This document shows, piece after piece, positions 46,809 through 63,669 of a stretch of 64,000 bases of DNA. The position numbers and the translations under genes are program-made. Under the pieces are notes generated by a model. The model was not told the origin of the DNA. It made no database searches and saw nothing but the letters and a program-made list of their open reading frames with translations. Source of the stretch: Olleya sediminilitoris (GTDB taxonomy: Bacteria; Bacteroidota; Bacteroidia; Flavobacteriales; Flavobacteriaceae); NCBI RefSeq assembly GCF_016785945.1, contig NZ_JAEMEF010000008.1:62001-126000 (forward strand). Direction: 5' to 3'. Position 1 is the stretch's first letter; each line of letters opens with the position of its first letter.

Positions 46809-47174
46809 ATGCAATTATCAAAAACGGAAGAAGAATTAATGAATCACCTATGGAAGCTAGAAAAAGCTTTCATGAAGGACTTATTAGAAGCCTATCCAGA
46901 GCCTAAACCTGCAAATACTACTATAGCGACATTATTAAAACGTATGACAGACAAAGGTTTTGTGACTTACACTAAATTTGGTAACTCAAGACAATACTAT
47001 CCTTTAGTTAATAAAAAAGACTATTTCTCTAAGCATGTTAATGGGTTAATCAAAAACTTTTTTAACAATAGCAGTTCTCAATTTGCTTCATTTTTTACTA
47101 AAGAAACAGATTTAAGTAAATCAGAATTAGAAGCATTACGCTCTATAATTGATAATGAAATTAAAAACAAATAA
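46809..47174 (+). CDS. BlaI/MecI/CopY family transcriptional repressor
   Basis: Winged-helix repressor of 121 residues. It starts MQLSKTEEELMNHLWKLEKAF. The recognition helix region is NTTIATLLKRMTDKGFVTY and the wing is KFGNSRQYYPLV. The C-terminal helix dimerises and carries the region cut by M56 proteases in studied homologues. It binds the three dyads just upstream and is followed after 2 nt by the M56 sensor gene. No beta-lactamase gene is in the neighbourhood, so it does not signal resistance by itself. Homologous pairs in Bacteroidota often serve envelope stress. Confidence 0.93.
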   Translation: MQLSKTEEELMNHLWKLEKAFMKDLLEAYPEPKPANTTIATLLKRMTDKGFVTYTKFGNSRQYYPLVNKKDYFSKHVNGLIKNFFNNSSSQFASFFTKETDLSKSELEALRSIIDNEIKNK

Positions 47175-47176
47175 TT

Positions 47177-49537
47177 ATGGGATTACTGCTATTAAAATCC
47201 ATTACCTGTCTATTAATACTTCTTATATTCTATAAATTAATATTAGAAACTTTAAGCAACCATAAATTTAAAAGAGCCTATTTATTAATCGCTATTTTAA
47301 CATCAGTCATTACGCCTTTTATAACCTTTGTAAAATATGTAGCTCCTTCAGTTGATAAGGTATTGCTAATTGATAATAATACAGAAACAATACCATTAAA
47401 TACAACTTTTAAAATAGCAGAAGGCACTAATTACTTAGCATTTGTATTATGGAGTTTATACGCAATTGGTGTTAGCTTATTCTTAATTAGGTTTGGAAAA
47501 AATGTTTTTGGGATTGTTTCAAAAATTAAAAAACATGAAAAAGTTAAACATAATAATTTCATCAATGTTTTAATACATCAACTGGAAATTCCACATACTT
47601 TTTTCAACTTCATTTTTCTTAATAAAAATAAATTCGAACACAATCAAATTCCGCATGAAATATTACTACACGAACAAACACATGCTAAACAAAAACATAG
47701 TTTAGATATATTATTTATTGAGCTATTACAAATAATGTTTTGGTTTAATCCATTGTTATATTGGTTAAAAAAAGAGGTTAAACTTAATCATGAATTTTTA
47801 GCTGACCAAGCGGTTTTAAATCAAGGAGTAGACACTAAAAACTATCAAAATATTTTGCTAGCGTTCTCATCAAACCAGCAGGAACAGGCATTAGTTAATG
47901 CCATCAATTATTCATCAATCAAAAAACGTTTTACACTTATGAAAACACAAACAACAAAATCAGTCGCTTGGCTACGCAGTTTACTACTGCTTCCATTATT
48001 AGGAGTTTTAATTTACAGCTTCAGTAATACAATAGAAATTGAAAAAGAAACTAACTCTAATTTATTACAAAAATTTGAAAATGCATCAGAAAAGGTAAAT
48101 TCTAAAATTAATTATATAAATGAAATTAATAAAGACGAGTATTATAAAAATGTAACAATAATATTTAGAGATAAAAACAAGAATGTAATTGCAACTAAAA
48201 AATATGTTGACTTATCTGAATTAGAAAGGAAACTATTACCACCTCCACCATCCAAACCAAAAAAGATTAGCCCAACAAAACAACAGTTAAACAATTGGTT
48301 GGACAGTAAAAAATATGGTATTTGGTTAGACGGAAAAAAAATTAACAATAATAAATTATCATCATTATCAACATCAAGTTTTGCTCATTATTTTGAAAGT
48401 AAATTGGCTAAAAATGCTTTAAACTATGGCAAACATTATTACCAAATAGATTTATACACAGAAGATGCATTTAACAAAAATTGGGAGGATACAATAAAAC
48501 CTTTAAGTAAAGAATCTGAAATATTTATCTACTATAATCAAAAAGCATTAAGTAATAATAAAAAACAAATTTCAAATTATACTCAATCTGCGACTTTTTT
48601 AGAAAACACAAAATTACTAGTAAACGGAATAGAATGTGATGGTTGTAAACTTAATTTAAGTAAAAAAGGCATAATTGGACTAATATTATCTACCAATAAC
48701 AAAGAAGCAATCACGGAGTTTAAACTTAAAATACCCGGAATTAAAACCTTATTTAACGAAGGTAACATGCCTAATAACGAAACTAAACAATATATTACAA
48801 GAGCTAAGCAAGGAGATATTATCCAAGTATTTGACATTAAAACTAAGTCCAATAAATTTAAGCCTGTTGTTATAAAGGTTGTAGACAAAAATGATGAGAA
48901 TTATTCTGAATCACCTAAAGTAAAAAAAGGAGACGCGTCTAGTATTCCTCCTCCACCTCCACCACCTCCAGTAAATCCTAATGCAACACCAGAAGAAAAA
49001 GCAAAACAAGAAGAAGTCATAGAACAATACAATAAAGAGAATAAAATTATAAAAGGAAAGGTGTACAAGAATCCACCACCTCCTCCTGCTGCTCCAACAC
49101 CACCTGCACCTTTGAAAAGTGATAAAGAACTTGTTGAAGCAAAAAGAGCTAAATTGATTGCTAGACGTAATCAAATAATAGCTGAAAGAAATAAGAAAAA
49201 AAGCACTTTAAAAAAGGCAAAATCAATAGAAAGAAAAGAAGCACTAGAAAGTAGAAGAGCTGAACTTATAGAAAAAAGAGACGCCAGGAAAATAGCACTT
49301 CAAAAAAGAAGAGATAATATGCTGCCTCCACCTCCACCAAAATCTCCTTTACAACATGTTATTGATATGTCTAAAAAAGGAGCGACATTTTACTACAACA
49401 CCAATAAAATATCATCTGATAAAGCTATCGAATTAATTAAACAGAATAAAAATTTAAATATTTCTTCAAATACTGATAATGGTAATTCAACTGTAAAAAT
49501 CTCAGAAAAAGGAATAATTACAATTAATGATAACTAA
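47177..49537 (+). CDS. M56 (BlaR1-like) membrane metallopeptidase with proline-rich C-terminus
   Basis: Inner-membrane sensor protease of 786 residues. Membrane helices lie at about 4-24, 34-54, 88-106 and, after the protease domain, 265-284 (SLLLLPLLGVLIYSF). The zinc site is HEQTH (His165, Glu166, His169) with the third ligand Glu206 in NHEFLADQ. It should cleave BlaI when activated. The periplasmic part (290-786) is not a penicillin-binding domain. It holds three Pro-rich runs (LLPPPPSKPKK, IPPPPPPPP, NPPPPPAAPTPPAP), a Lys/Arg/Glu-rich helix (about 655-715), and a small terminal unit with GATFYYNTNKISSDKAIELI. The ligand is unknown. Confidence 0.88.
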   Translation: MGLLLLKSITCLLILLIFYKLILETLSNHKFKRAYLLIAILTSVITPFITFVKYVAPSVDKVLLIDNNTETIPLNTTFKIAEGTNYLAFVLWSLYAIGVSLFLIRFGKNVFGIVSKIKKHEKVKHNNFINVLIHQLEIPHTFFNFIFLNKNKFEHNQIPHEILLHEQTHAKQKHSLDILFIELLQIMFWFNPLLYWLKKEVKLNHEFLADQAVLNQGVDTKNYQNILLAFSSNQQEQALVNAINYSSIKKRFTLMKTQTTKSVAWLRSLLLLPLLGVLIYSFSNTIEIEKETNSNLLQKFENASEKVNSKINYINEINKDEYYKNVTIIFRDKNKNVIATKKYVDLSELERKLLPPPPSKPKKISPTKQQLNNWLDSKKYGIWLDGKKINNNKLSSLSTSSFAHYFESKLAKNALNYGKHYYQIDLYTEDAFNKNWEDTIKPLSKESEIFIYYNQKALSNNKKQISNYTQSATFLENTKLLVNGIECDGCKLNLSKKGIIGLILSTNNKEAITEFKLKIPGIKTLFNEGNMPNNETKQYITRAKQGDIIQVFDIKTKSNKFKPVVIKVVDKNDENYSESPKVKKGDASSIPPPPPPPPVNPNATPEEKAKQEEVIEQYNKENKIIKGKVYKNPPPPPAAPTPPAPLKSDKELVEAKRAKLIARRNQIIAERNKKKSTLKKAKSIERKEALESRRAELIEKRDARKIALQKRRDNMLPPPPPKSPLQHVIDMSKKGATFYYNTNKISSDKAIELIKQNKNLNISSNTDNGNSTVKISEKGIITINDN

Positions 49538-53005: not shown

Positions 53006-54190
53006 TTATTGTACTACTTCAAGCTTAGTTGATTTGGTTATAGCTGGCTTTTTTTTTCCTCTATATACCCAAGCAATTTGAGCTAATTGAAATATGATTT
53101 TTACTGAATCTTTCATTGATAGTTTAGAACCATCTGCATGAATCCATCTTTTTAATGGTTGCTCACAAAGCATTGACTTTGCTTTTTTTAATCCAAAATG
53201 AATACTCATTCTTTTAAAAATTTCGACATCAAAAATCCATTGTGTAACAAACTTTTTACCAAATGCAATTTGAATAACATCTTTACTAAAGATTTTAGCG
53301 CCACATTGTGTGTCTTTAAAATCCATTCTTAAAATCTTTCTTATAATAAAGTTTATGGTCAAACTAATTATTTTTCTAGCAGACTCTTTAGTTATATCCG
53401 CTCCCATTCTTGATATTCTTGACCCACTAACTATTTTAAAATCTGAAGTTTCAATAGTTTTAACCAAGTCGTCAAAATCTGCTAAGTCTGTGGATAAGTC
53501 TGCATCTAAAAACCCTATATAATCAAGATCTTCTTTTTCTGCCATGTGTAACATACCTAAACGAACAGCTTCAGCTTTTCCTCCATTTTTCTCACAGTCA
53601 TAAACTGTAATAAAGTCCTCTCGTCCTTTTTGTAAATTATTTAAAACCTCTAAGGTTTTATCTTTACTACCATCGTTTACAAAACATAAATGGTAGCCTG
53701 TATATTTATCTATGTAAGATAAAAACTCGTCACTTAACAAACGCTCTTCTTCATTGTAACAAGGTATTACAACACCAACACAACGATCCTGAATCATTAC
53801 ATTGCTAGCTGCTACAGTATTTTCAACTACTGGAGCACCAATTAAGCGTTTAACACGTGCACTTATCTCGTTTAAACTTAAAGGTTTTTTCATGTAGTCG
53901 TTAATACCCAAATCAAAACCTTCAGTAATTGTTTCGTCTTTATTATCTCCTGACAACACCATTATTGGTGTTTCAGATTTTTTAGCAATCCTTATGTATT
54001 TAACAATTTCTAATCCAGACAAACCAGGCATATTGATGTCTACAATTACTAAATCTGGGTTAAAAGAATCGTAAGAGTCTAATCCTTTTTGACCATCAGT
54101 TTCTATCTTAACTTGATAACCTAACTCGGTTAATCTTTTTTGTAAAGGCAGTAAAACCAACTGCTGATCATCTATTGCTAATACTTTCAT
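53006..54190 (-). CDS. Receiver domain fused to a GT2 glycosyltransferase
   Basis: A 394-residue cytoplasmic fusion. Residues 1-118 form a CheY-like receiver: acidic pair D7-D8, phosphoacceptor D51 in VIVDINMPGLSG, Ser80 and Lys102 in YMKKP. After a short linker, residues 135-390 form a family 2 glycosyltransferase of the dolichyl-phosphate-mannose-synthase type: VVIPCYNEEERL, VNDGSKDKTLEVL (173-182), KNGGKAEAVRLGM, and the metal motif DAD (229-231). KDTQCGAKIFSKD follows further on. All catalytic landmarks of both domains are present. Phosphorylation by a histidine kinase probably controls sugar transfer directly instead of gene expression. It is first in a unit with the degenerate GT2 and manA, and LytTR-like repeats lie upstream at 54280-54311. 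Confidence 0.92.
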   Translation of the reverse strand: MKVLAIDDQQLVLLPLQKRLTELGYQVKIETDGQKGLDSYDSFNPDLVIVDINMPGLSGLEIVKYIRIAKKSETPIMVLSGDNKDETITEGFDLGINDYMKKPLSLNEISARVKRLIGAPVVENTVAASNVMIQDRCVGVVIPCYNEEERLLSDEFLSYIDKYTGYHLCFVNDGSKDKTLEVLNNLQKGREDFITVYDCEKNGGKAEAVRLGMLHMAEKEDLDYIGFLDADLSTDLADFDDLVKTIETSDFKIVSGSRISRMGADITKESARKIISLTINFIIRKILRMDFKDTQCGAKIFSKDVIQIAFGKKFVTQWIFDVEIFKRMSIHFGLKKAKSMLCEQPLKRWIHADGSKLSMKDSVKIIFQLAQIAWVYRGKKKPAITKSTKLEVVQ

Positions 54191-54221: not shown

Positions 54222-54229
54222 CAAAAATA
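54222..54229 (-). promoter_or_regulatory. Candidate -7 box for the receiver-GT2 gene
   Basis: The minus strand reads TATTTTTG, fitting TAnnTTTG, about 32 nt upstream of the ATG at 54190. The direct repeats at 54280-54311 start 51 bp further upstream, a suitable activator position. Confidence 0.4.
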
Positions 54230-54279
54230 GCATAGAATTGTGATGAAATTATCTTCTTTAGATTAAGCAGGCATTAAGT

Positions 54280-54311
54280 GTCGACGAATGGTAAATTGCT
54301 GTAGATAATTA
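54280..54311 (-). promoter_or_regulatory. LytTR-like direct repeats, site 1
   Basis: On the plus strand GTCGACGAATG (54280-54290) and GTAGATAATTA (54301-54311) are 21 bp apart. The 18-mer GTGTCGACGAATGGTAAA (54278-54295) matches site 2 (61580-61597) at 17 of 18 positions. Read leftwards, ACCATTCGT fits the LytTR box consensus at 8 of 9 positions. It lies between the receiver-GT2 gene and the GT-C gene. Confidence 0.6.
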
Positions 54312-54390
54312 AAAATTGGAGCAGTATTTAATTTAATTATCTTTACAATTATGTATAACTTTAGGTTAACAAAATAACGATCAGTAATAA

Positions 54391-57300
54391 TTGAAAGAAA
54401 CCTCAAATAAATTTTTAATTGCCGCACTCCTATTAGGATTGTCTTTTCATGGTAGTTCCATATTTTTCACATTGGAAACTACGTATGATGCATTAATTCA
54501 TTTATTTTTTGCAGATCATTATGCTAATAGTTGGTTTGAACCCTGGAACTATGAGTGGTACACTGGTTTTACTGTACAAAGTTATCCGCCTTTAGTACAT
54601 CAAACTATTGGTTTATTATCATTAGTTGGAGGTTTAAAATTTGGAATGTTTAGCGTTGCGCTTATTGCAATTGTCCTATTTGTAACTGGTACGTATCGTT
54701 TTTCATTATTAATGACATCAAACAAAACAGTTGCTGGTTATGCTTGTGTTTTGGCTGTTTTCTCATCTTCTTTTGTAGAAACCCTTCATATTTTTGGGCA
54801 ATTACCCAGTATTGTTGGTGTTTCAGTTTTAATGCATGCTTTACCTGAAATTTATTTATGGTTAAAAACAGGAAGAAAATGGTATTTAGCCACTAGTTTA
54901 TCGCTTATAGCGGTTACAGTTACTTCACATCATGTAACACCAATATTTGGAATGGTATTTTTTATCTTTCCTTTAATAGGTATGGTGTTAATGGATGTTT
55001 CTAGAGAACAAGTGAATAGTATGAAGGAAGTAACCTTCAAAATATTTTTGAATAGCTTTTTCAAGCTTTTTAAACGTATTGTAAGCTTTGGCATGCTGTC
55101 TTTAGTGTTAATTGTAGGTTGTATTTTTCCGTATTGGTTAAACTCTAAAGCCAACCCAATTACGCAAGTACCTATACCACATGGTTCTCGAGATAATTTT
55201 TTAGAAATTACGTCTTCAGGATTAGTATTCTTTTTAATTCCTTGGGGAATTTTACTAATATTATTGCCTTACATTTTTTATAGATACTATAGCAAACGTT
55301 ACTTGTTTTTTGGATTATCGGTTACCATTTGTACCATTTTAGGAACTGGAGGAACGACTCCTGTACCACTAAAAATGTTAGGAGAAACTGCTTTTAATAT
55401 TTTAACTTTAGATAGATTTACGCTTTGGGCTTCTATTTTATCCATTCCTTTAATGGGTGAATTTGCTTATCGCTTTGTGCAAGGCGATTTAAAAGCATTA
55501 ATTCAATCTAAATTTGGTGCTGTTTACCATCGTATTATAGGTGGAATATTGGCTGGTTTATTTGTCTTTATGGTGGTTTTTACGATGAGTTTAAATTACT
55601 TTAGACCTTCACAACCGCAAAAAATAAAAATGCTACCTATTGTCAACTTCTTAAATCAAGATGATCATGATAAATGGCGCTTTTTAACGCTTGGTTTTGG
55701 AGACCAAATGGCTTGGTTGAGTGCACAAACTAATGCCATGACTGTTGATGGAAACTACCATTCTGCTAGAAGATTACCAGAATTAACCACAAGACCTATT
55801 GAGCGTTTAGAAAACTCTAAATTTAAAGGTGTTGCAGGTATTGGATCATTACAACAATTTTTAACCACTCCAGAAAAGTACAATTTAAAGTATATATTCT
55901 CTAACGATAAGTTTTACGATCCAATCCTCTATTTCTGTGGTTGGCAACGCTTAAGACAATTAGAAAATGGTATTATGGTTTGGGAACGTTTAAACATTCC
56001 GCCAGTTTCTGCTATTTTACCTAAAGAAGATGTTGCTAAATGGTTGAAGATTCATTGGGGAATTATGCCTTTTTTAACCGTTTTAATAGCGTTTGTATTA
56101 AACATACAAATGTTATTTGTTATTGCTTTAAAAACCAAAGAAAAACCGCTTCCAGATTTTTTAAAGTTTCCAATTAGTTATAATAAATTTAATAGAAATG
56201 TATTACGCATCATACACCTTTGGTCTTTAGTTTTGGCAGGAGTTGTATTTTACGGAGTCTATTTATTCTACATTAAAAACGAATCACAACTTAGCCCAGA
56301 AAATGCAATTATTGCCTATTATGATGCCTTAGATTTTAAAGAATTTGAAAAAGCACATAGTTTAATTGATCCTAGTAGTAACATACCAATTGCGCAATAC
56401 ATGTTAGAAATTTCAGTGACTGATGGACTTTTAAGTAGTTATGCAAAAATGGATGCTATTGAAACCGAAATTACTGCTGTAAACGATAGTACAGTCTCAG
56501 CAAAAGTGATTAGCCAATGGATTACACCTTTAGAAAAAATTGAAAAAGTAGATTACAAATCGCTTTCTAAAATTAAAGGAAAATGGTTTTTACAACCAGA
56601 TGATTTAAATAACGATTTACCTCCTGACCAATTGTACTCAGACAATGTTACTAAGTATTTTAATCAAGGACGACGACGCATTACAACAGAAGCAACCCAT
56701 CATGAAGACATTTTAAAACAACCCGTTTTAGAAGTTGTGTCGGCTAAACTGGTACATTATGATGGTAGTTATGCTATTATTGGTGAAGTACAAAACATAG
56801 ACAATGTTCCGTCTGATGTTATTTTAAAAGGAACATTATATAATGATGACAATAAACAGTTGGCAACTTACAATGCCAAATACCATGTCAAGCATAAACT
56901 AATGCCTAAAGAATCTAGTAGTTTTAGAATTAATTTTGAAGGTATTGCTTGGTCTAAAACGCAAGATTCTATTCCTGACACATTTAATCCAGACGAATTT
57001 ACACCTGTTGAATTTGAAGAACAACCAACAAAATTCAACTTACAAATCGCCGGAAATGTTGCAGGCACAGATTTATATAAAAATGTAGTTTTAAGTGAAC
57101 TAAAAATTAAAGATTCTATATTAGAAGGAAATCTTTTTAATAGCGGTATTCAAGAAATTACAATACCTCAACTTCTAATTACGTATTATGATGAGAACAA
57201 AAACATGATTTGGGTAGATCATTTATTTGTTAAAGCAGGAGTTAGGCAACAACGTAAACAACATTTTGATTATACTATTTTACAAAGTGGTAAAGTAGAA

Positions 57301-57480
57301 ATTATTAACGATAGTATGAAAAACATCTTTGTAAATGGTTTACCAAACGAAGATATCTCAGACAAAATAGTACCAAACCGAATTATAGATCATACAAACG
57401 CACAATTACAACCTATTGAGCATCCAGATTTTAGTTATATTAAAATAGAAATTAACACTTATATAGGTAGCCCAAATTAA
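54391..57480 (+). CDS. GT-C-like polytopic membrane protein with NTF2-like and FxLYD-like periplasmic domains
   Basis: A 1029-residue protein. No ATG is available near the start, and translation probably begins at TTG 54391, since stop codons precede it and the next Met is about 87 residues on. About 12 helices lie in residues 8-405, with the first loop ETTYDALIHLFFADHYANSW and YEWYTGFTVQSYPPLVHQ. This layout (acidic first periplasmic loop, then W-x-x-G...YPPL) is that of GT-C/PTPS-related membrane glycosyltransferases using lipid-linked sugars. Two further helices lie near 555-575 and 610-630. The periplasmic C-terminal half holds an NTF2-like domain (about 638-745) and FxLYD-like beta units (about 770-1029). 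Its stop overlaps the next start by 1 nt. Confidence 0.75.
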   Translation: MKETSNKFLIAALLLGLSFHGSSIFFTLETTYDALIHLFFADHYANSWFEPWNYEWYTGFTVQSYPPLVHQTIGLLSLVGGLKFGMFSVALIAIVLFVTGTYRFSLLMTSNKTVAGYACVLAVFSSSFVETLHIFGQLPSIVGVSVLMHALPEIYLWLKTGRKWYLATSLSLIAVTVTSHHVTPIFGMVFFIFPLIGMVLMDVSREQVNSMKEVTFKIFLNSFFKLFKRIVSFGMLSLVLIVGCIFPYWLNSKANPITQVPIPHGSRDNFLEITSSGLVFFLIPWGILLILLPYIFYRYYSKRYLFFGLSVTICTILGTGGTTPVPLKMLGETAFNILTLDRFTLWASILSIPLMGEFAYRFVQGDLKALIQSKFGAVYHRIIGGILAGLFVFMVVFTMSLNYFRPSQPQKIKMLPIVNFLNQDDHDKWRFLTLGFGDQMAWLSAQTNAMTVDGNYHSARRLPELTTRPIERLENSKFKGVAGIGSLQQFLTTPEKYNLKYIFSNDKFYDPILYFCGWQRLRQLENGIMVWERLNIPPVSAILPKEDVAKWLKIHWGIMPFLTVLIAFVLNIQMLFVIALKTKEKPLPDFLKFPISYNKFNRNVLRIIHLWSLVLAGVVFYGVYLFYIKNESQLSPENAIIAYYDALDFKEFEKAHSLIDPSSNIPIAQYMLEISVTDGLLSSYAKMDAIETEITAVNDSTVSAKVISQWITPLEKIEKVDYKSLSKIKGKWFLQPDDLNNDLPPDQLYSDNVTKYFNQGRRRITTEATHHEDILKQPVLEVVSAKLVHYDGSYAIIGEVQNIDNVPSDVILKGTLYNDDNKQLATYNAKYHVKHKLMPKESSSFRINFEGIAWSKTQDSIPDTFNPDEFTPVEFEEQPTKFNLQIAGNVAGTDLYKNVVLSELKIKDSILEGNLFNSGIQEITIPQLLITYYDENKNMIWVDHLFVKAGVRQQRKQHFDYTILQSGKVEIINDSMKNIFVNGLPNEDISDKIVPNRIIDHTNAQLQPIEHPDFSYIKIEINTYIGSPN

Positions 57481-58700
57481 TGCAAAAACAACGAACATAT
57501 CTGTTTTTTTTAGGATTGATTTTATTATCATCCTTCGCAATCGTACGACAAAATAAAGCTTCGGTTGTTATGAAACTATTAACTACTAAAACCGACTTTG
57601 AGGTTGGTCAAACTGTTATATTACAATTTTCAAATACACAAGAAGCAGACAAACCGTTGCTTTATTGTTCTAACAGTTATGGTTCTACTTTAATTACTTC
57701 GACTATAAAAAACAACACACTAGAATATGTCATTCCAGAAAACATTACCAAAAAAATTGGCGTCATCAATTGGACTATTTTAAATGCAAACAAATCGCTT
57801 TCTGGAACATTACATATACTTCCAAAAGCAGAAGTTGCAACCATGGAAACCTATATTGGTCCTCCAAGCATTGAAGCTGGTGGAACAGATTACACCATGT
57901 TGGTTGTTATTCCAACAGACTCTCTAGATAATCCTGTACCAAAAAACACTTTAGTAAACGAGAAACATCAGTTTTTATCTTCGGAAGAAACGCATGATAT
58001 TTTTACAGATAAACTTATTGCTTATAGAAATATTTATTCGAAAAAAGAAAGTGGTCGTATGTTGGTTTCGTCAGAAAGCTTAGGCATCAACTCTAAAGAA
58101 TTCACCATTAATGTTATGCCAGCAATTCCTACTGGATTTACTATAAGTGCGACAAGACCGCATAACTATTCCGATGGAAATCAAATTACGACATTTACGA
58201 CCTCTATTATAAAAGATGAACACAATAATGTTGTTAGTGACGGTACTTTTGTAACCTTTTTTATTACCAATCAAGAACAGTATGTTTTAAAAACAACTGG
58301 CACAACCATTGATGGAGTTGCAACCTCAAAAATGATTCATCCAGATTATGCAGACACTTGGAGTATAAAAGCGTATGTTGATGGTATGTCCGAAAGTAAT
58401 AGCATTACCTTAAGCTACAAACAAGTTATTGAAGATTTTGAGGTTGCCTTTTCTGAAAAAAATCGTTTAATAACCGTTGGTCCTTTGCAAAGTTTTATGC
58501 AGCAAATGATTCCGGATGGATTACACATTAAACTTAAAATATATAAGGATAATATATTAGTAGAAACATTGACTAAAACATCGTTTAATGGTTATACTAC
58601 TTTTAAGCTGAAACCTGCTATTTACAGTCATGGTAATTATGATTTTAGTTTAGAAACTGCTGGAGTAGCAAAACAATTTAAAACAATCAAACTATGGTAA
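57480..58700 (+). CDS. Exported Ig-like domain protein of the exopolysaccharide locus
   Basis: A 406-residue protein with an N-terminal signal or anchor (about 5-22). It appears to consist of consecutive beta-sandwich domains. Residues about 215-315 (FTISATRPHNYSDGNQITTFTTS ... VSDGTFVTFFITN ... ATSKMIHPDYADTWSIKAYV) resemble bacterial Ig-like (Big_1/invasin type) units. No catalytic motif is visible. ATG and upstream stop overlap (TAATG), and its last 7 nt overlap the next gene, so the three plus-strand genes are probably translated together. A scaffolding role in the periplasm, holding the GT-C and GH proteins, is an inference. Confidence 0.7.
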   Translation: MQKQRTYLFFLGLILLSSFAIVRQNKASVVMKLLTTKTDFEVGQTVILQFSNTQEADKPLLYCSNSYGSTLITSTIKNNTLEYVIPENITKKIGVINWTILNANKSLSGTLHILPKAEVATMETYIGPPSIEAGGTDYTMLVVIPTDSLDNPVPKNTLVNEKHQFLSSEETHDIFTDKLIAYRNIYSKKESGRMLVSSESLGINSKEFTINVMPAIPTGFTISATRPHNYSDGNQITTFTTSIIKDEHNNVVSDGTFVTFFITNQEQYVLKTTGTTIDGVATSKMIHPDYADTWSIKAYVDGMSESNSITLSYKQVIEDFEVAFSEKNRLITVGPLQSFMQQMIPDGLHIKLKIYKDNILVETLTKTSFNGYTTFKLKPAIYSHGNYDFSLETAGVAKQFKTIKLW

Positions 58701-60208
58701 GTATTAATAAAAATATTATGCGTACCATATTAATAGCCTCGTATATTATGCTTGTAGCCTTAATTATTTCTGGAGTTAGTGCTTTATTTAGTTACCTAAA
58801 TACTGGTGCAGACCGAAGTAAAATGCTGCATACCGAAATTAAAAAAGTAGAACAATATTTACCTACAATAAATTGGGAACCTTTACAAAACGAAGGACGA
58901 CCAATGGATAACGAAAACCTAAATGCATTACAAAACGATTATTTAGATGCTTGGTATGTTAAGCAAATTGCTTACAAAACCAATAAAACTGCTGGAATAA
59001 AAGACTATTATACAGATAGTGCAAGAGAAAACTTATTTGCGTTTATAGACTTAAACAAAGCGCAAGACATTACCATAGAAGCTACTACTTTAAAACACAA
59101 CCCTACTTTAGAGTTTTTTAGTGAAGACGGACAAATGGCTGTCATTACAGACCGAAATGTTATTGAATACAAACGTGTATTTAAAGCTAATAAGTTGGTT
59201 TTAGAAACTACTGAAACCTCAACATACCAAATGGTGTTTTTGCTTGAAGATGGTTTCTGGCGTATTAGACATTTGGTTAAAGAAGAAGCTGATATTTACA
59301 ATAAGCAACCAAAACAAATTGCTGTTGATAGTTTAAATATTAAAGGCATTAATTACTATCCGCAAGCCAATCCTTGGGATATGTTTGGCAATGCTTTTTC
59401 TACCGATACTATTGCAAAAGATTTTAAAATAATTAAAGATGCAGGTTTAAACTCTGTCAGACTATTTGTGCAATACGAAGATTTTGGTAAAGCCGCGATA
59501 GATTATAAAAAAGTAGACAAATTAAAGCAAACTTTAGATATGGCAGCTGCTAACAATTTAAAAGTCGTTTTAACGCTTTTTGACTTTTATGGAGATTATA
59601 ATGTTATGAGTTGGACTTTAAATCAACGTCACGCAGAAGGTATTGTAAATGCTGTTAAAGACCACAAAGCCTTATTAGCTTGGGATATTAAAAACGAACC
59701 TAATTTAGATTTTGAATCTAGAGGAAAAGATAACGTTATTGCATGGTTAGATAATATGATTGATTTAGTCAAAGAAATTGATACTGTACATCCAGTAACC
59801 ATAGGTTGGTCCAATACTGAAAGTGCTACTATTTTAAAAGATAAAGTAGATTTTATATCATTTCATTATTACGAAGATTTGGAACAATTAGATGAAGCCA
59901 TTACAACCATGAAAAAAGAAATACCAAACAAACCCTTAGTTTTGCAAGAGTTTGGAATGTCTTCATATTCTGGATTGTGGAAACCTTTTGGGTCTTCAGA
60001 TGAAGACCAAGCTAATTATCACAAAAAAATCCAAGAACAAATTGCAGCAAATAAGTTGCAATTTATGTCTTGGACTTTATATGATTTTACTTCTGTACCT
60101 AATGATGTTGTAGGTAGACTACCTTGGCGTAAAAATACTCAAAAGCATTTTGGGTTTATTGATAAAAATGGGACAAAAAAACCTGCTTTTAAATATATAA
60201 CACATTAA
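58694..60208 (+). CDS. Membrane-anchored GH5-like glycoside hydrolase with NTF2-like domain
   Basis: A 504-residue protein. An N-terminal helix (about 9-33) without cleavage signal anchors it to the inner membrane. Residues about 70-205 form an NTF2-like domain (WYVKQIAYKTNKTAGIKDYY ... EDGFWRIRHLVKEE). A TIM-barrel hydrolase of the cellulase/GH5 clan covers 215-504: KGINYYPQANPWDMF, LNSVRLFVQYEDFG, acid/base Glu in WDIKNEPNLDF, HYYEDLEQLDE and nucleophile Glu in LQEFGMSSY. The hydrolase faces the periplasm and may trim or edit the nascent polysaccharide, as cellulases do in cellulose export loci. It is coupled to the preceding gene by a 7-nt overlap. Confidence 0.85.
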   Translation: MVSINKNIMRTILIASYIMLVALIISGVSALFSYLNTGADRSKMLHTEIKKVEQYLPTINWEPLQNEGRPMDNENLNALQNDYLDAWYVKQIAYKTNKTAGIKDYYTDSARENLFAFIDLNKAQDITIEATTLKHNPTLEFFSEDGQMAVITDRNVIEYKRVFKANKLVLETTETSTYQMVFLLEDGFWRIRHLVKEEADIYNKQPKQIAVDSLNIKGINYYPQANPWDMFGNAFSTDTIAKDFKIIKDAGLNSVRLFVQYEDFGKAAIDYKKVDKLKQTLDMAAANNLKVVLTLFDFYGDYNVMSWTLNQRHAEGIVNAVKDHKALLAWDIKNEPNLDFESRGKDNVIAWLDNMIDLVKEIDTVHPVTIGWSNTESATILKDKVDFISFHYYEDLEQLDEAITTMKKEIPNKPLVLQEFGMSSYSGLWKPFGSSDEDQANYHKKIQEQIAANKLQFMSWTLYDFTSVPNDVVGRLPWRKNTQKHFGFIDKNGTKKPAFKYITH

Positions 60209-60237
60209 TTGTTTGGGACAAAAAAGGTATACTATAA

Positions 60238-61476
60238 TTATTCTACTGTGGTAGGTTGTATATCTATAGTTTGCTTTTTTCTAGATTTAGTTGGTCTTTT
60301 TTTTTGAATAATCTTATCAAAATTATTCAAATACATACTTGCTATTTTTTCCATTGGATAGGCTGTTGCTGCTTCATAATTTGCTTTACCTAATTCAATT
60401 CTGTAATCATTATTGGTTACAATAGCTTCAATTGCTTTGGCTAAACTATCAATAGATGTTGGGTCAAAAAACTCACCTTTATAACCTTCATCTTTAACTA
60501 ATAAAGCAAGATCTCCTAAATCTGGCATTACAACTGCTTTACCGTAACTTCCAGCTTGATGTAAAACTCCAGAGCTTCCTGTTGTGGATGTATAAGGAAA
60601 TACAACTACTGCACTTTCGTTAAATAATACAGGTACTTCTACTTCTTCTACATAACCTGTAAAACGTACTTGCGGTACATGTTTATAATCTTCTTTTACT
60701 TTAGCTAAATAACCTGGTACATTTGGGTTGTCTGTTCCTGCAATTACAACTTCAAGATCCATTCCTGTATATTTTCTAACTTTTTCTACAGCTTCAATCA
60801 TACCTTCAACCTTTTTATAGGTACCAAATTTCCCGAAAGTCATAATCTGTAAAGGTCCTTTTGGCAAACTGTAATCTGGTTGTATTTCAGTAACTTCAAA
60901 AGTTCCATGCGGAATTAATGTTACATTTTTGGCCTTATATTTTTTCTCTAAAATGTCAACGTACTTTTGCATTGTTACTGCAACTGTATCTGCTTGTAAT
61001 ATTAATTTTGTTAGAGTTGTACCAATAAAACCATATACTTTTTGCATTAGTTTATTACTTGTAAATCCTGCAGATCCTAAATCTACCTCTTCAAGTATAT
61101 TATGTAATAAAACGATGTTTGGTATGTTTTTTAACTTACAAACTAATGGTAACATTAAACCTAAAGCTGCAGCTATTTTTTTATCTCCAAACTTCATGAA
61201 CTGCAAGTTAAATAATACTGCATCTGGTTTGGTTGCATTAATAGCTTTAGTAACGTTGATTATGTTAGTATAGCTATTAAAAGCCCAACACTCTTTAACA
61301 GTGATCTTACATCCAGCTTCAGTAAACGCGATATCTTTTACGCCTTCTGTTTTATCTGTAAGCAACACTATTTCTGTTACATTATCTTTTTGTCTAAAAT
61401 GCTTTACTAAATGGTAAGCGTACTCGTTTAGTGTGACTTTACTTGGTGGATATGCTGTTACGATTGCTAGTTTCAT
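60238..61476 (-). CDS. Glycosyltransferase family 4 (GT-B)
   Basis: Cytoplasmic sugar transferase of 412 residues. The N-terminal Rossmann half (LAIVTAYPPSKVTLNEYAYHL) and C-terminal half (LQIMTFGKFGTYKKVEGMIEAVEKV; VFPYTSTTGSSGVLHQAGSYGKAVV) follow the GT4 layout. The usual E-x7-E active segment is partly altered (NESAVVVFPY ... HQAGSYGKA, with Gln-Ala where Glu-Ala is common). It ends with a Lys/Arg-rich tail. It converges on the GH gene with 29 nt between, and has its own LytTR-like control site (61582-61613). Donor and acceptor are unknown. Confidence 0.87.
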   Translation of the reverse strand: MKLAIVTAYPPSKVTLNEYAYHLVKHFRQKDNVTEIVLLTDKTEGVKDIAFTEAGCKITVKECWAFNSYTNIINVTKAINATKPDAVLFNLQFMKFGDKKIAAALGLMLPLVCKLKNIPNIVLLHNILEEVDLGSAGFTSNKLMQKVYGFIGTTLTKLILQADTVAVTMQKYVDILEKKYKAKNVTLIPHGTFEVTEIQPDYSLPKGPLQIMTFGKFGTYKKVEGMIEAVEKVRKYTGMDLEVVIAGTDNPNVPGYLAKVKEDYKHVPQVRFTGYVEEVEVPVLFNESAVVVFPYTSTTGSSGVLHQAGSYGKAVVMPDLGDLALLVKDEGYKGEFFDPTSIDSLAKAIEAIVTNNDYRIELGKANYEAATAYPMEKIASMYLNNFDKIIQKKRPTKSRKKQTIDIQPTTVE

Positions 61477-61581
61477 AATACCTGTATTTATATTTTTTAA
61501 TATCTTGTCTCTTGATTACATTACAAATTTGGACTTTTAAAAAGAGTTATTCTATTAACCTTAGACAGAATGCATTTTGGT

Positions 61582-61613
61582 GTAGACGAATGGTAAAAAT
61601 CTATAGATTTACC
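61582..61613 (-). promoter_or_regulatory. LytTR-like direct repeats, site 2
   Basis: On the plus strand GTAGACGAATG (61582-61592) and ATAGATTTACC (61603-61613) are 21 bp apart, the same spacing as at site 1. The 18-mer at 61580-61597 is nearly identical to site 1. It lies about 106 nt upstream of the GT4 start. Confidence 0.6.
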
Positions 61614-61644
61614 TATTTTACAGATAGTTACAAAACCTACAAAA

Positions 61645-61677
61645 AACAAAAAAGGCTGTAGTACAAACTACAGCCTT
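61645..61677 (-). terminator. Intrinsic terminator after the flippase gene
   Basis: AAGGCTGTAGT (61652-61662), loop ACAA, ACTACAGCCTT (61667-61677), with an A-run to its left that is a T-run on the minus strand. It ends the STAS-STAS-flippase transcript before the GT4 promoter. Confidence 0.88.
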
Positions 61678-61708
61678 CAACCAAAATAAACTAAAAAAAC
61701 ACTCAATT

Positions 61709-62953
61709 CTATTGTTTCAACTTAGAGTCGAAAACAAAAAAACTAATTTGTATTACAAGTAATAACGACATGGCTATAATCTGCATGTGTACGACTTGTT
61801 CTAAACTGTCATGAAAAAATATTACTAATCCCATTTGAAGCATTCCAAACACTCCAGAGATCACAACAGGAATGTATCTGTCTAATGATAAATAGTAATA
61901 TGCAAATATATTTGAGATGGCAAACAAACCTGTTGCCAAAGCGTACTTCCATAATAAAGGAGCCATAGCTAAATAACTATCACCAAATAAAATGGTAATT
62001 GCTGTTTTTGGGAATAAGGCACAACCAATAACGATAACGGTTGCAATTCCTGCTATATAACCAACATACTTAAACAATATTGGCGCTGTTGCTTTACCTT
62101 CTTTTTTTAACTGTACTACAGTTGGTAGTAATAACATTACAAACATCCAAGCTATGAAGTAAACTATACGACCTATTAAGGCTAATGAAGCGTATAATCC
62201 TGCATCATAAGAGTCAAAGTAATGTTTAACTAATAATATGTCACTATTATTAATTATAATTTGAGTTAGCTCATAAAACGCAGTGATTATAAAAAAGCTA
62301 CGAACTTGTTTTGACTGCGTTGCATCAATAGCTAATATATTTTTAAATTTTAAATTTTTAAATTTAAAAGGTATTAATCCAAAACCAAACGAAATTAAAA
62401 TTCCGATAGCAATCACAACCGATGATTGCATGTTAAATAAAAAGATCAATCCTAAGGTAATAACCAATCGACTTAGCATTTCTGCTTGATAAGTAATTGA
62501 TAAAAACTTAAATTCTTTTTTACCCTGAAACACACCTCTGTTTACACTCATTAAAAAATAAAGCGGTACACCAATTCCAAATATGGTAAACATGCTTGAC
62601 GACGATGTGTTAAAAACAATTTGTAATTGTTTTGCAAATATTATAATTAAAGCTCCAAAGCCCAATCCCACAATAGTAGCATGCTTATATATTTTAGCTA
62701 CAAAATTGGCGAAAGTTTCATTTTCAAAAATTACCGAAAACTTTGCTGTTACTAACTGAAATGTCATAGCTACAAAAGATAACACCAACAAAAAGGTAAT
62801 TAAAACAGCTGCGTCTGCAAATTGTGCTGGTCCTAATACACGACCTAGAATTAGGTTGTATAAATAGTTTCCTCCATTTACTGCCAATACACTTAGCATA
62901 AACAGTTGCTCTGGAGATATTTTTCTTGATTTTAACATCGATAAAACTTGCAT
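61709..62953 (-). CDS. Oligosaccharide flippase (Wzx/MOP superfamily)
   Basis: A 414-residue inner-membrane protein with about 12 hydrophobic helices. It starts with the cytoplasmic segment KSRKISPEQLFMLSVLAVNGGNYLYNLILGRVLGPAQFADAA; the NYLYNLILGRVLGP part is typical of polysaccharide flippases (MATE/MOP fold). Another family feature is VKHYFDSYDAGLYASLALIGRI in the second half. It should move lipid-linked oligosaccharide to the periplasmic side. Its gene follows two STAS genes with a 31-nt gap and ends at the terminator at 61652-61677. Confidence 0.87.
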   Translation of the reverse strand: MQVLSMLKSRKISPEQLFMLSVLAVNGGNYLYNLILGRVLGPAQFADAAVLITFLLVLSFVAMTFQLVTAKFSVIFENETFANFVAKIYKHATIVGLGFGALIIIFAKQLQIVFNTSSSSMFTIFGIGVPLYFLMSVNRGVFQGKKEFKFLSITYQAEMLSRLVITLGLIFLFNMQSSVVIAIGILISFGFGLIPFKFKNLKFKNILAIDATQSKQVRSFFIITAFYELTQIIINNSDILLVKHYFDSYDAGLYASLALIGRIVYFIAWMFVMLLLPTVVQLKKEGKATAPILFKYVGYIAGIATVIVIGCALFPKTAITILFGDSYLAMAPLLWKYALATGLFAISNIFAYYYLSLDRYIPVVISGVFGMLQMGLVIFFHDSLEQVVHMQIIAMSLLLVIQISFFVFDSKLKQ

Positions 62954-62984
62954 CTTAATAGCGATTTAAGGTTAAGGTTTTTAG

Positions 62985-63263
62985 TTATGCTACATTAGGA
63001 TAGCTAAAGGTTTCGTAAATAGTTTCGCTATTTTTACCTTCAACAAAAAACATATTTTGTTTCATTATCGCTTGACTATACATAACTTTTAAAACTTGTA
63101 ATGCTGTTATATCAATAGATTCTACATTTTCAATATTTAATGTCATATTTGTATTGGACTCTAAAATGTAGCTAAAATGCTTTTTAAAACTTGTAATGTT
63201 TGCAGTATTTAAAACACCATCTAAAAAAATTGTATTGTCTTGTTGTGTTATTGTTAGTGCCAT
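62985..63263 (-). CDS. STAS domain protein 2
   Basis: A 92-residue stand-alone STAS (anti-sigma-factor-antagonist-like) domain. It aligns from end to end with its neighbour: MALTITQQDNTIFLDGVLNTANITSFKKHF and VESIDITALQVLKVMY, the position of the SpoIIAA phospho-Ser loop. There the DSSG motif reads D51-I-T-A, so the regulatory Ser is absent, though Thr53 follows. It lies 39 nt after STAS 1 and 31 nt before the flippase. No Ser kinase of the SpoIIAB/RsbW type lies within the window. Confidence 0.87.
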   Translation of the reverse strand: MALTITQQDNTIFLDGVLNTANITSFKKHFSYILESNTNMTLNIENVESIDITALQVLKVMYSQAIMKQNMFFVEGKNSETIYETFSYPNVA

Positions 63264-63302
63264 AATGTTTCAGTTTAAAAGGTTTAAATTTGGGTATAAG
63301 TA

Positions 63303-63575
63303 TTAAGTTATGCTTAGTAATTCTTCATAAATATCTTTACAACCAAGTCCTACAATTACAAAAGGTTTATCCCATGATTTTGCATTATTATAAATAACTT
63401 TAAAAGCATTCATACCTTTTGCATCTATTTGAGTAACTTTATTAATATCAATCGTTAGGTTTTCTAAAGTATTAAGAGTGATGTTAAAATGGGTTTGAAA
63501 GCTACTTGCTGTGGTAGCATCAATTTGTCCTTCTAATGTAAATGTGTTATCGTTTCTTAATATTTTTAAAGCCAT
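63303..63575 (-). CDS. STAS domain protein 1
   Basis: A 90-residue STAS domain. The ATG at 63575 (MALKILRNDNTFTLEGQ) aligns exactly with its paralogue. An ATG at 63695 would add 40 polar residues of no family and run over the control repeats. The SpoIIAA phospho-loop DSSG reads D51-A-K-G, so the phosphorylatable Ser is replaced by Ala. It is first gene of the STAS-STAS-flippase unit, with LytTR-like repeats 63-94 nt upstream. It may bind another protein of the locus rather than an anti-sigma factor. Confidence 0.87.
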   Translation of the reverse strand: MALKILRNDNTFTLEGQIDATTASSFQTHFNITLNTLENLTIDINKVTQIDAKGMNAFKVIYNNAKSWDKPFVIVGLGCKDIYEELLSIT

Positions 63576-63637
63576 GTTGGTTTCTTGTTTGTTTCTGATA
63601 CAAAGATGCAACGTAAACCTTTCAAATTCAGTTGAAT

Positions 63638-63669
63638 TTCGACGAGTCGACGATTGGTGTAGATGAATG
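63638..63669 (-). promoter_or_regulatory. LytTR-like direct repeats, site 3
   Basis: On the plus strand TTCGACGAGTC (63638-63648) and GTAGATGAATG (63659-63669) are 21 bp apart, as at sites 1 and 2. A further overlapping copy GTCGACGATTGGT (63646-63658) matches site 1 at 12 of 13 positions. It is placed between STAS 1 and the divergent TPR gene, so it could serve both. Confidence 0.55.

Follow-up and report, generated by a model that had tools for sequence, protein, structure and literature searches.

Paired sites with a 21-bp period at glycan promoters of Olleya sediminilitoris point to control by a linked LytTR response regulator

We analyzed a stretch of 64,000 nucleotides of the Olleya sediminilitoris genome, hereafter the window (contig NZ_JAEMEF010000008.1, positions 62,001 to 126,000; C36:62001-126000 of a 3.42 Mb genome), and in it three direct-repeat sites that lie before genes for glycan synthesis and resemble the binding sites of LytTR response regulators. 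By Pfam, the locus encodes two GT2 glycosyltransferases, a GT4 glycosyltransferase, a flippase, a phosphomannose isomerase, a GH5-type enzyme and STAS proteins; its product would be an exopolysaccharide. The predicted targets in the window, with the genes of their units, are as follows:

53006..54190, minus strand: receiver domain fused to a GT2 glycosyltransferase, predicted target (Pfam Response_reg and Glycos_transf_2)
60238..61476, minus strand: GT4 glycosyltransferase, predicted target (Pfam Glycos_transf_1)
63303..63575, minus strand: STAS protein 1, ATG at 63575, predicted target (Pfam STAS)
62985..63263, minus strand: STAS protein 2, in the unit of STAS protein 1 (Pfam STAS)
61709..62953, minus strand: polysaccharide flippase, in the unit of the STAS proteins (Pfam Polysacc_synt_3)

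In the receiver-GT2 fusion (53006-54190), phosphorylation may control the activity of the enzyme itself, besides transcription.

A sequence-only reading of the window had placed two copies of one element, 21 bp apart, at each of three promoters, and all three sites were found where it had put them. Read on the minus strand, in gene direction, site 1 is ATCTACA-N14-GTCGACA and site 2 is ATCTATA-N14-GTCTACA, each with a period of 21 bp; the two agree at 17 of 18 bases (GTGTCGACGAATGGTAAA versus GTGTAGACGAATGGTAAA), as that reading had counted, and their joint form is ATCTAYA-N14-GTCKACA with the core TACCATTCGTCKACAC. Site 3 (ATCTACA-N14-GTCGAAA) keeps the same 21-bp register and is the weakest of the three. 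The first part is called unit A below and the second unit B:

54278..54306, minus strand: site 1, two-part LytTR-type box before the receiver-GT2 gene (unit A 54300-54306, unit B core 54278-54291; 54.0 bits)
54255..54264, minus strand: third, weaker unit C of site 1, AATCTAAAGA, 21-22 bp past unit B
61580..61608, minus strand: site 2, two-part box before the GT4 gene (38.9 bits)
63636..63664, minus strand: site 3, degenerate two-part box before the STAS-STAS-flippase unit (24.2 bits)

Divergent from site 1 lies a gene for a 1029-residue protein without a Pfam match (window 54391-57480), which was matched, including its start, in 79 of the loci searched.

The bit scores come from a matrix trained on 24 sites from eight genomes of other genera, which ranked sites 1, 2 and 3 as the top three of the window; the next-best match (13.2 bits) was site 2 shifted by one register. 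In 6.8 Mb of first-order random sequence, the same matrix found no match at 20 bits or above, one at 16 bits and three at 12 bits. The two-part pattern that gathered the training sites had been designed from sites 1 and 2 and from two further sites past the window end (sites 4 and 5, below), so that site 3 is the sole unbiased test of the matrix. No STAS promoter was in the training set; the STAS sites of loci L137 and L141 have four mismatches and were not taken. Site 3 is also where chance similarity is easiest to suspect, given that it lacks the ACCATTCGTC core; its score against that random background, and the presence of a site at the same place before STAS1 in the five other genus genomes that have the locus (4/5 at 20 bits or above, 5/5 at 16 bits or above), make such an explanation hardly credible. 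The three-site observation is thereby confirmed as real and far above chance.

The exact 10-mer ACCATTCGTC occurs five times in the 3.42 Mb genome, versus eight times for its backward control, so it is not enriched by number; what is informative is its position. Four of the five matches fall within 16.3 kb of one contig, namely at sites 1 and 2 and at two places past the window end, and the fifth lies inside an open reading frame that looks, by eye, like glycyl-tRNA synthetase. Searched over the whole genome with up to three mismatches, the two-part pattern gave four matches, all in this cluster, and its control none. Rather than being scattered at random, which would have told against the sequence-only reading, the pattern is confined to one locus.

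The sites also have the layout expected of LytTR operators. LytTR sites are described (published work is cited here from excerpts) as pairs of 9-11 nt repeats that are separated by 11-13 nt and follow no common consensus (PMC4847170). Sites 1 to 5 have this layout, with a period of 21 bp, and in a profile of 149 unique sites unit B recurs best at -21 and next best at +21. The sequence-only reading had compared the unit with a LytTR-box consensus of its own, [TA][AC][CA]GTTN[AG][TG], and had found one base amiss; indeed, ACCATTCGT fits 8 of the 9 positions, one short of a full match. Since LytTR sites have no common consensus, we did not treat this match as defining.

The sequence beyond the window end was followed in L009, the 20 kb that adjoin it (adding 64000 to an L009 position gives the window coordinate), which contains three more sites and a gene for a LytTR response regulator:

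L009 3282-5894: secreted DUF6923 protein with a sorting tail
L009 5973-6001: site 4, before the DUF6923 gene (34.5 bits; exact ACCATTCGTC match, 6.0 kb past the window end)
L009 6016-6504: CAP-domain protein
L009 6583-6611: site 5, before the CAP gene (33.3 bits; exact ACCATTCGTC match, 6.6 kb past the window end)
L009 6724-7434: LytTR response regulator (Response_reg 63.4 bits, LytTR 72.9 bits, both above cut-off)
L009 7444-7761: Hpt-like protein (16.8 bits; Pfam cut-off 24.6)
L009 7766-8812: histidine kinase
L009 8812-9945: FIST protein (FIST 148.2 bits, FIST_C 122.3 bits)
L009 9949-11541: PAS histidine kinase
L009 11541-12080: H-NOX protein (HNOB 133.5 bits; cut-off 25.5)
L009 12083-12496: receiver protein
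L009 12603-12631: site 6, before the gene row of the regulator (16.7 bits; 12.6 kb past the window end)

The window ends about 7 kb before the regulator gene, which is on the strand of the sites and targets and is the last gene of its row; from the receiver gene onwards, this row forms a putative operon. In a search of solved structures with the LytTR regulator, the 60 matches listed of 61 align to its receiver half. By inspection, the H-NOX protein carries His 102/104 and YKSSR at 133, which we take to be the proximal histidine and the YxSxR of the haem-site motif, and it is likely a nitric-oxide (NO) sensor. The FIST protein is a stand-alone FIST-FIST_C protein with kinase genes adjoining, as in NosP; it is NosP-like in these respects, and binding of haem or NO may be predicted for it. 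The Hpt-like protein has HKLK at H55.

If this regulator binds the sites, then sites and regulator should occur together. Within the genus, the motif was found in 6 of 10 genomes (21 matches, 20 of them in one cluster per genome; control, one match), and an orthologue of the LytTR regulator was present in exactly those six; the other four genomes (G001, G007, G008, G009) have LytTR paralogues only and no motif. We extended the comparison to a family sample of 249 genomes from 235 genera, taking as regulator orthologues the 99 rows, in 98 genomes, down to an E-value of 1.9e-74, after which E jumps to 7e-61. With up to two mismatches allowed, the motif was present in 36/98 genomes with the orthologue and in 2/151 without it (Fisher, 8e-15); with up to three, in 64/98 and 15/151 (3e-20). 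The latter threshold gave 133 matches in 79 genomes, compared with 16 for the backward control. Moreover, for 79 of the 133 matches the regulator gene is no more than 30 kb away, and all but one of these 79 (78) share its strand. The sole exception (G085:C1:914641, L242) is an opposite-strand site 117 bp past the end of the regulator gene. Both in the genus and in the family, then, a LytTR regulator is conserved together with the motif, and the motif is kept in the same intergenic regions of related species and genera; its absence there would have refuted the sequence-only reading.

These data also bear on whether the sites might be operators of another regulator, either a different LytTR protein or an unlinked factor, with the linked LytTR gene a mere neighbor. 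There are eight LytTR domains in the genome, LytTR proteins have a site architecture in common (PMC4847170), and 34 of the 98 orthologue-bearing genomes are without a match. The motif, however, tracks the linked orthologue: the paralogue-only genomes of the genus lack it, so do all but two of the 151 orthologue-less genomes of the family at two mismatches, and nearly all linked matches share the strand of the regulator. We therefore consider control by another regulator unlikely.

The relation between sites and target genes was followed in two ways. Firstly, 55 of 109 full-length receiver-GT2 matches, down to 54% identity, were compared with the motif; the weaker full-length rows of G122 and G126 and a second G084 row were left out, and G053 entered the 55-row set as an N-terminal fragment row and the 20-row count below as its main row. 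A site was found upstream of 17 of the 55 GT2 rows typed. Among the 20 rows with at least 79% identity (own genome included), 16 have a site 84-96 bp upstream; those without are G057, G071, G081 and G221, and the G057 row starts 27 bases from a contig end. Secondly, named loci were fetched by their GT2 protein regardless of the motif, with members of the genus and repeats of training contigs excluded (the blind set). At 20 bits or above, a site precedes receiver-GT2 in 30/59 loci, GT4 in 16/54, STAS1 in 6/20, STAS2 in 5/16 (in part the same sites as STAS1), CAP in 2/2 and DUF6923 in 0/1; for neighboring control genes, the corresponding counts are 3/52 for the flippase, 0/41 for the small GT2 and 0/233 for nine others. 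In the three Winogradskyella loci L149, L151 and L153 it is the flippase gene that the operator precedes, and these loci explain some of the flippase matches among the controls.

In the five other genus genomes with the locus, sites of at least 20 bits precede GT2 in 5/5, GT4 in 4/4 unique promoters, DUF6923 in 5/5 and CAP in 4/5. Conservation beyond the genus is partial: in other genera, roughly one GT2 promoter in two has a strong site (30/59). A further set of loci, fetched for having a motif match, was kept apart from the blind set; its control genes gave 0/75 for the nine others, 1/7 for the flippase and 2/6 for the small GT2. Matches to the receiver gene of the operon were filtered by identity, the receiver domain of the GT2 gene also having matched the query, and L166 and L152 were dropped as repeats of contigs L127 and L139 (no further such pair was seen among L147-L210).

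The low GT2 and GT4 shares in the blind set arise in part because another gene comes first in the locus. Among 18 loci from Maribacter, Zobellia and allied genera whose best GT2 match is without a site, nine carry a site of at least 16 bits elsewhere, before GT4 in six and before a second receiver protein in four; in one Zobellia locus, a site precedes a STAS-like gene. The idea that Maribacter and Zobellia glycan genes are without the site was ruled out by these nine loci, and that of a clade-limited wiring, or of glycan genes wired in later, was dropped once the Maribacter and Zobellia sites had been found. In the Maribacter loci L183, L191, L199 and L208, a second receiver protein of 384-388 residues, encoded about 9 kb after the first receiver-GT2 gene, carries the operator and the first receiver-GT2 does not.

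The gene for the predicted gas sensor mostly travels with the regulator as well. H-NOX was present in 93 of the 249 genomes and the regulator orthologue in 98; both occur in 87 genomes, and in 81 of these the two genes are no more than 10 kb apart. Upstream of 26/97 HNOB matches there is a motif match at 494-564 bp, a distance that places it ahead of the small receiver gene preceding H-NOX. Before the H-NOX genes of L226, L228 and L232 (G111, G117, G149), two overlapping pattern matches lie 21 bp apart, and these three tandem units are a fuller form of the operator than that in the window.

Next, we aligned 49 sites together with the sequence that follows them. Conserved columns are 0 to 6 (unit A), 13 to 31 (unit B) and +40 to +48 (unit C), with a further conserved box near 77 to 84 and lower conservation in between. 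The last of these corresponds to TAnnTTTG, the -7 consensus of flavobacterial sigma-A, a box that spans -12 to -5 (PMC9723704). In the window it is represented by:

54222..54229, minus strand: -7 box TATTTTTG (TAnnTTTG) of the receiver-GT2 gene, +77 from unit A
61524..61531, minus strand: -7-like box CAAATTTG of the GT4 gene, +77
63601..63608, minus strand: -7-like box CATCTTTG of the STAS gene, +56, 21 bp nearer than for GT2 and GT4

Among promoters that have a site, exact TAnnTTTG stands at +76 to +78 in 40/44 GT2 promoters, at +76 in 10/10 DUF6923 promoters and at +76 or +77 in 9/10 CAP promoters; within one mismatch, it stands at +77 in 32/37 GT4 promoters and at +56 in 22/23 STAS promoters. 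The STAS class is therefore one 21-bp unit shorter. The position is mixed in operon promoters (n = 19), and in this genome the operon has its -7 box, TAGATTTG, one unit further away, at +97. Where the box is expected, the GT4, STAS and CAP promoters of this genome do not match TAnnTTTG exactly.

A fixed distance to the -7 box could also mean that the repeats are part of the core promoter, or a motif of an alternative sigma factor, rather than an activator site. Unit A, however, begins 56 or 76-78 bp before the -7 box, beyond the usual sigma contacts, the -7 box itself is of the sigma-A type, and the pattern occurs at one locus only in the genome. We regard a sigma-factor motif as very improbable. 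Counting the -7 box as -12 to -5, the units are centered at about -86, -65 and -44; for comparison, the promoter-proximal repeats of AgrA are centered at about -60 (PMC4227749).

Among known systems, AlgR (AlgZR) of Pseudomonas aeruginosa is similar in that a LytTR response regulator controls an exopolysaccharide through several sites per promoter, and its core CCGTTCGTC has 8 of 9 bases in common with CCATTCGTC here (PMC4064291). AlgR sites, however, are irregularly spaced and occur in either orientation (-470, -394 and -45 at algD), whereas here two or three units of one orientation follow in 21-bp steps at a set distance from the -7 box; the excerpt cited names no H-NOX or FIST partner of AlgR (PMC4064291). 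AgrA, YpdB and other LytTR regulators likewise use paired repeats upstream of the promoter, but their sequences and targets differ and no third conserved unit is reported in the excerpts cited (PMC4847170, PMC4227749). On the sensory side, the H-NOX/HnoK and NosP/NahK systems of Shewanella, Vibrio and Legionella resemble the present gene row in having a haem sensor gene beside histidine kinases, and their outputs concern biofilm (PMC6769237, PMC8738867, PMC8846402). NosP belongs to the FIST proteins; binding of NO and/or haem has been reported for those of the FIST-FIST_C type (PMC8846402), and FIST proteins occur near the hnox genes of one H-NOX group (PMC8738867). The outputs described in these excerpts are cyclic diguanylate (c-di-GMP) enzymes, quorum-sensing phosphotransfer and, by an unidentified route, iron-uptake genes. 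By contrast, the gene row here ends in a LytTR factor with predicted operators at adjoining glycan genes. Among the matches listed in the open literature searched, which covered LytTR with exopolysaccharide or direct repeats in this group, H-NOX with LytTR, H-NOX in Bacteroidetes and AlgR boxes, no title or abstract describes this motif or regulon.

Collectively, these observations suggest that an H-NOX/FIST phosphorelay feeds a LytTR activator specific to this locus, which binds units on one face of the DNA at the glycan promoters; we would put the probability of this reading at roughly 0.82. The three sites in the window would be operators of the linked response regulator, with two strong units, A (ATCTAYA) and B (TACCATTCGTCKACAC), and a weaker third, spaced by 21-22 bp. 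Because this spacing equals two helical turns, regulator molecules would line up on one face of the DNA, in an array ahead of a sigma-A promoter of flavobacterial type whose -7 box is conserved. A gas or haem signal would set the flow of phosphate through H-NOX, FIST protein, kinases and Hpt-like protein, in an order that we can only propose, to the regulator, which would switch the receiver-GT2, GT4 and STAS-STAS-flippase genes, the two secreted-protein genes and its own operon. That one LytTR regulator controls the first three of these had already been proposed by the sequence-only reading, and conservation, linkage and co-occurrence with one LytTR orthologue speak for it. Beyond it go, as predictions from sequence, a regulon of six promoters including that of the regulator's own operon and the H-NOX/FIST phosphorelay, and, as conserved promoter features, the third unit and the -7 box at its fixed spacing.

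Within this reading, activation is most likely the mode of control and NO most likely the signal. The regulator might instead repress, or respond to something other than NO, such as haem, oxygen, redox state or a FIST ligand. The reported binding of NO and/or haem by FIST-FIST_C proteins leaves the ligand ambiguous (PMC8846402), NO-bound NosP inhibits the kinase VpsS (PMC6769237, PMC8738867), and HnoX inhibits HnoK when NO is present (PMC8846402); since NO inhibits kinases in the NosP and HnoX systems, it could also lower phosphorylation of the regulator here. Against repression, the units lie upstream of the -7 box, close to where AgrA repeats are centered (PMC4227749), and not over the start. 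Against another signal stand the histidines and the YKSSR of the H-NOX protein, the motif of a haem site. We hold repression or a different signal to be a possibility that deserves to be taken seriously, though a tentative one, and retain an NO-responsive activator as our preferred reading.

A number of findings weigh against control by the linked regulator. Site 3 has a degenerate core that lacks ACCATTCGTC, and site 6 combines a strong unit B with a poor unit A. In the blind set, 29/59 GT2 and 38/54 GT4 promoters fall below 20 bits; in Maribacter, the best GT2 match is without a site, though one is often present at GT4 or at a second receiver gene; and DUF6923 promoters outside the genus and the training set reach 20 bits in 0/3 cases. 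The operon receiver gene has a site of at least 20 bits in 12/15 match-fetched loci, a figure that is biased because these loci were chosen for a motif match. The genome encodes seven other LytTR proteins beside the linked regulator. Of the family matches, 54/133 have no regulator gene within 30 kb, and many of those at three mismatches are probably chance, given the 16 control matches; conversely, the 34 regulator-bearing genomes noted above have no match at up to three mismatches. H-NOX is missing from 11 of the 98 regulator-bearing genomes, some of them incomplete; the link between gas sensor and regulator is therefore not a strict one. Lastly, the Hpt domain of the Hpt-like protein is below its Pfam cut-off.

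Two further regions were noted by eye in passing. Window 46809-49537 holds a gene pair whose first product resembles a BlaI-type repressor and whose second, a long membrane protein rich in proline in places, looks M56/BlaR1-like. The open reading frames L009 1820-2536 and 2746-3108, on the minus strand, appear to belong to a single amino-acid permease gene that may be broken.

Among the papers listed in the literature searched, none described LytTR control of exopolysaccharide in marine Flavobacteriaceae. More broadly, we give even odds to the view that an NO/haem phosphorelay of these bacteria directly controls the adjoining glycan locus through operator units quantized in 21-bp steps; as the promoter classes differ by exactly one unit, the regulator would then meet RNA polymerase in the same helical register at each. 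The 21-bp step between promoter classes offers a natural test of contact between a LytTR activator and RNA polymerase. Our reading predicts the binder, its operators, the promoter positions and the signal, and so provides a control circuit for slime production in these bacteria that can be put to the test. Should NO be the signal, NO sensing would be joined to glycan synthesis through a LytTR factor and not through c-di-GMP or quorum sensing, which suggests how the bacterium may tie slime production to a gas signal.

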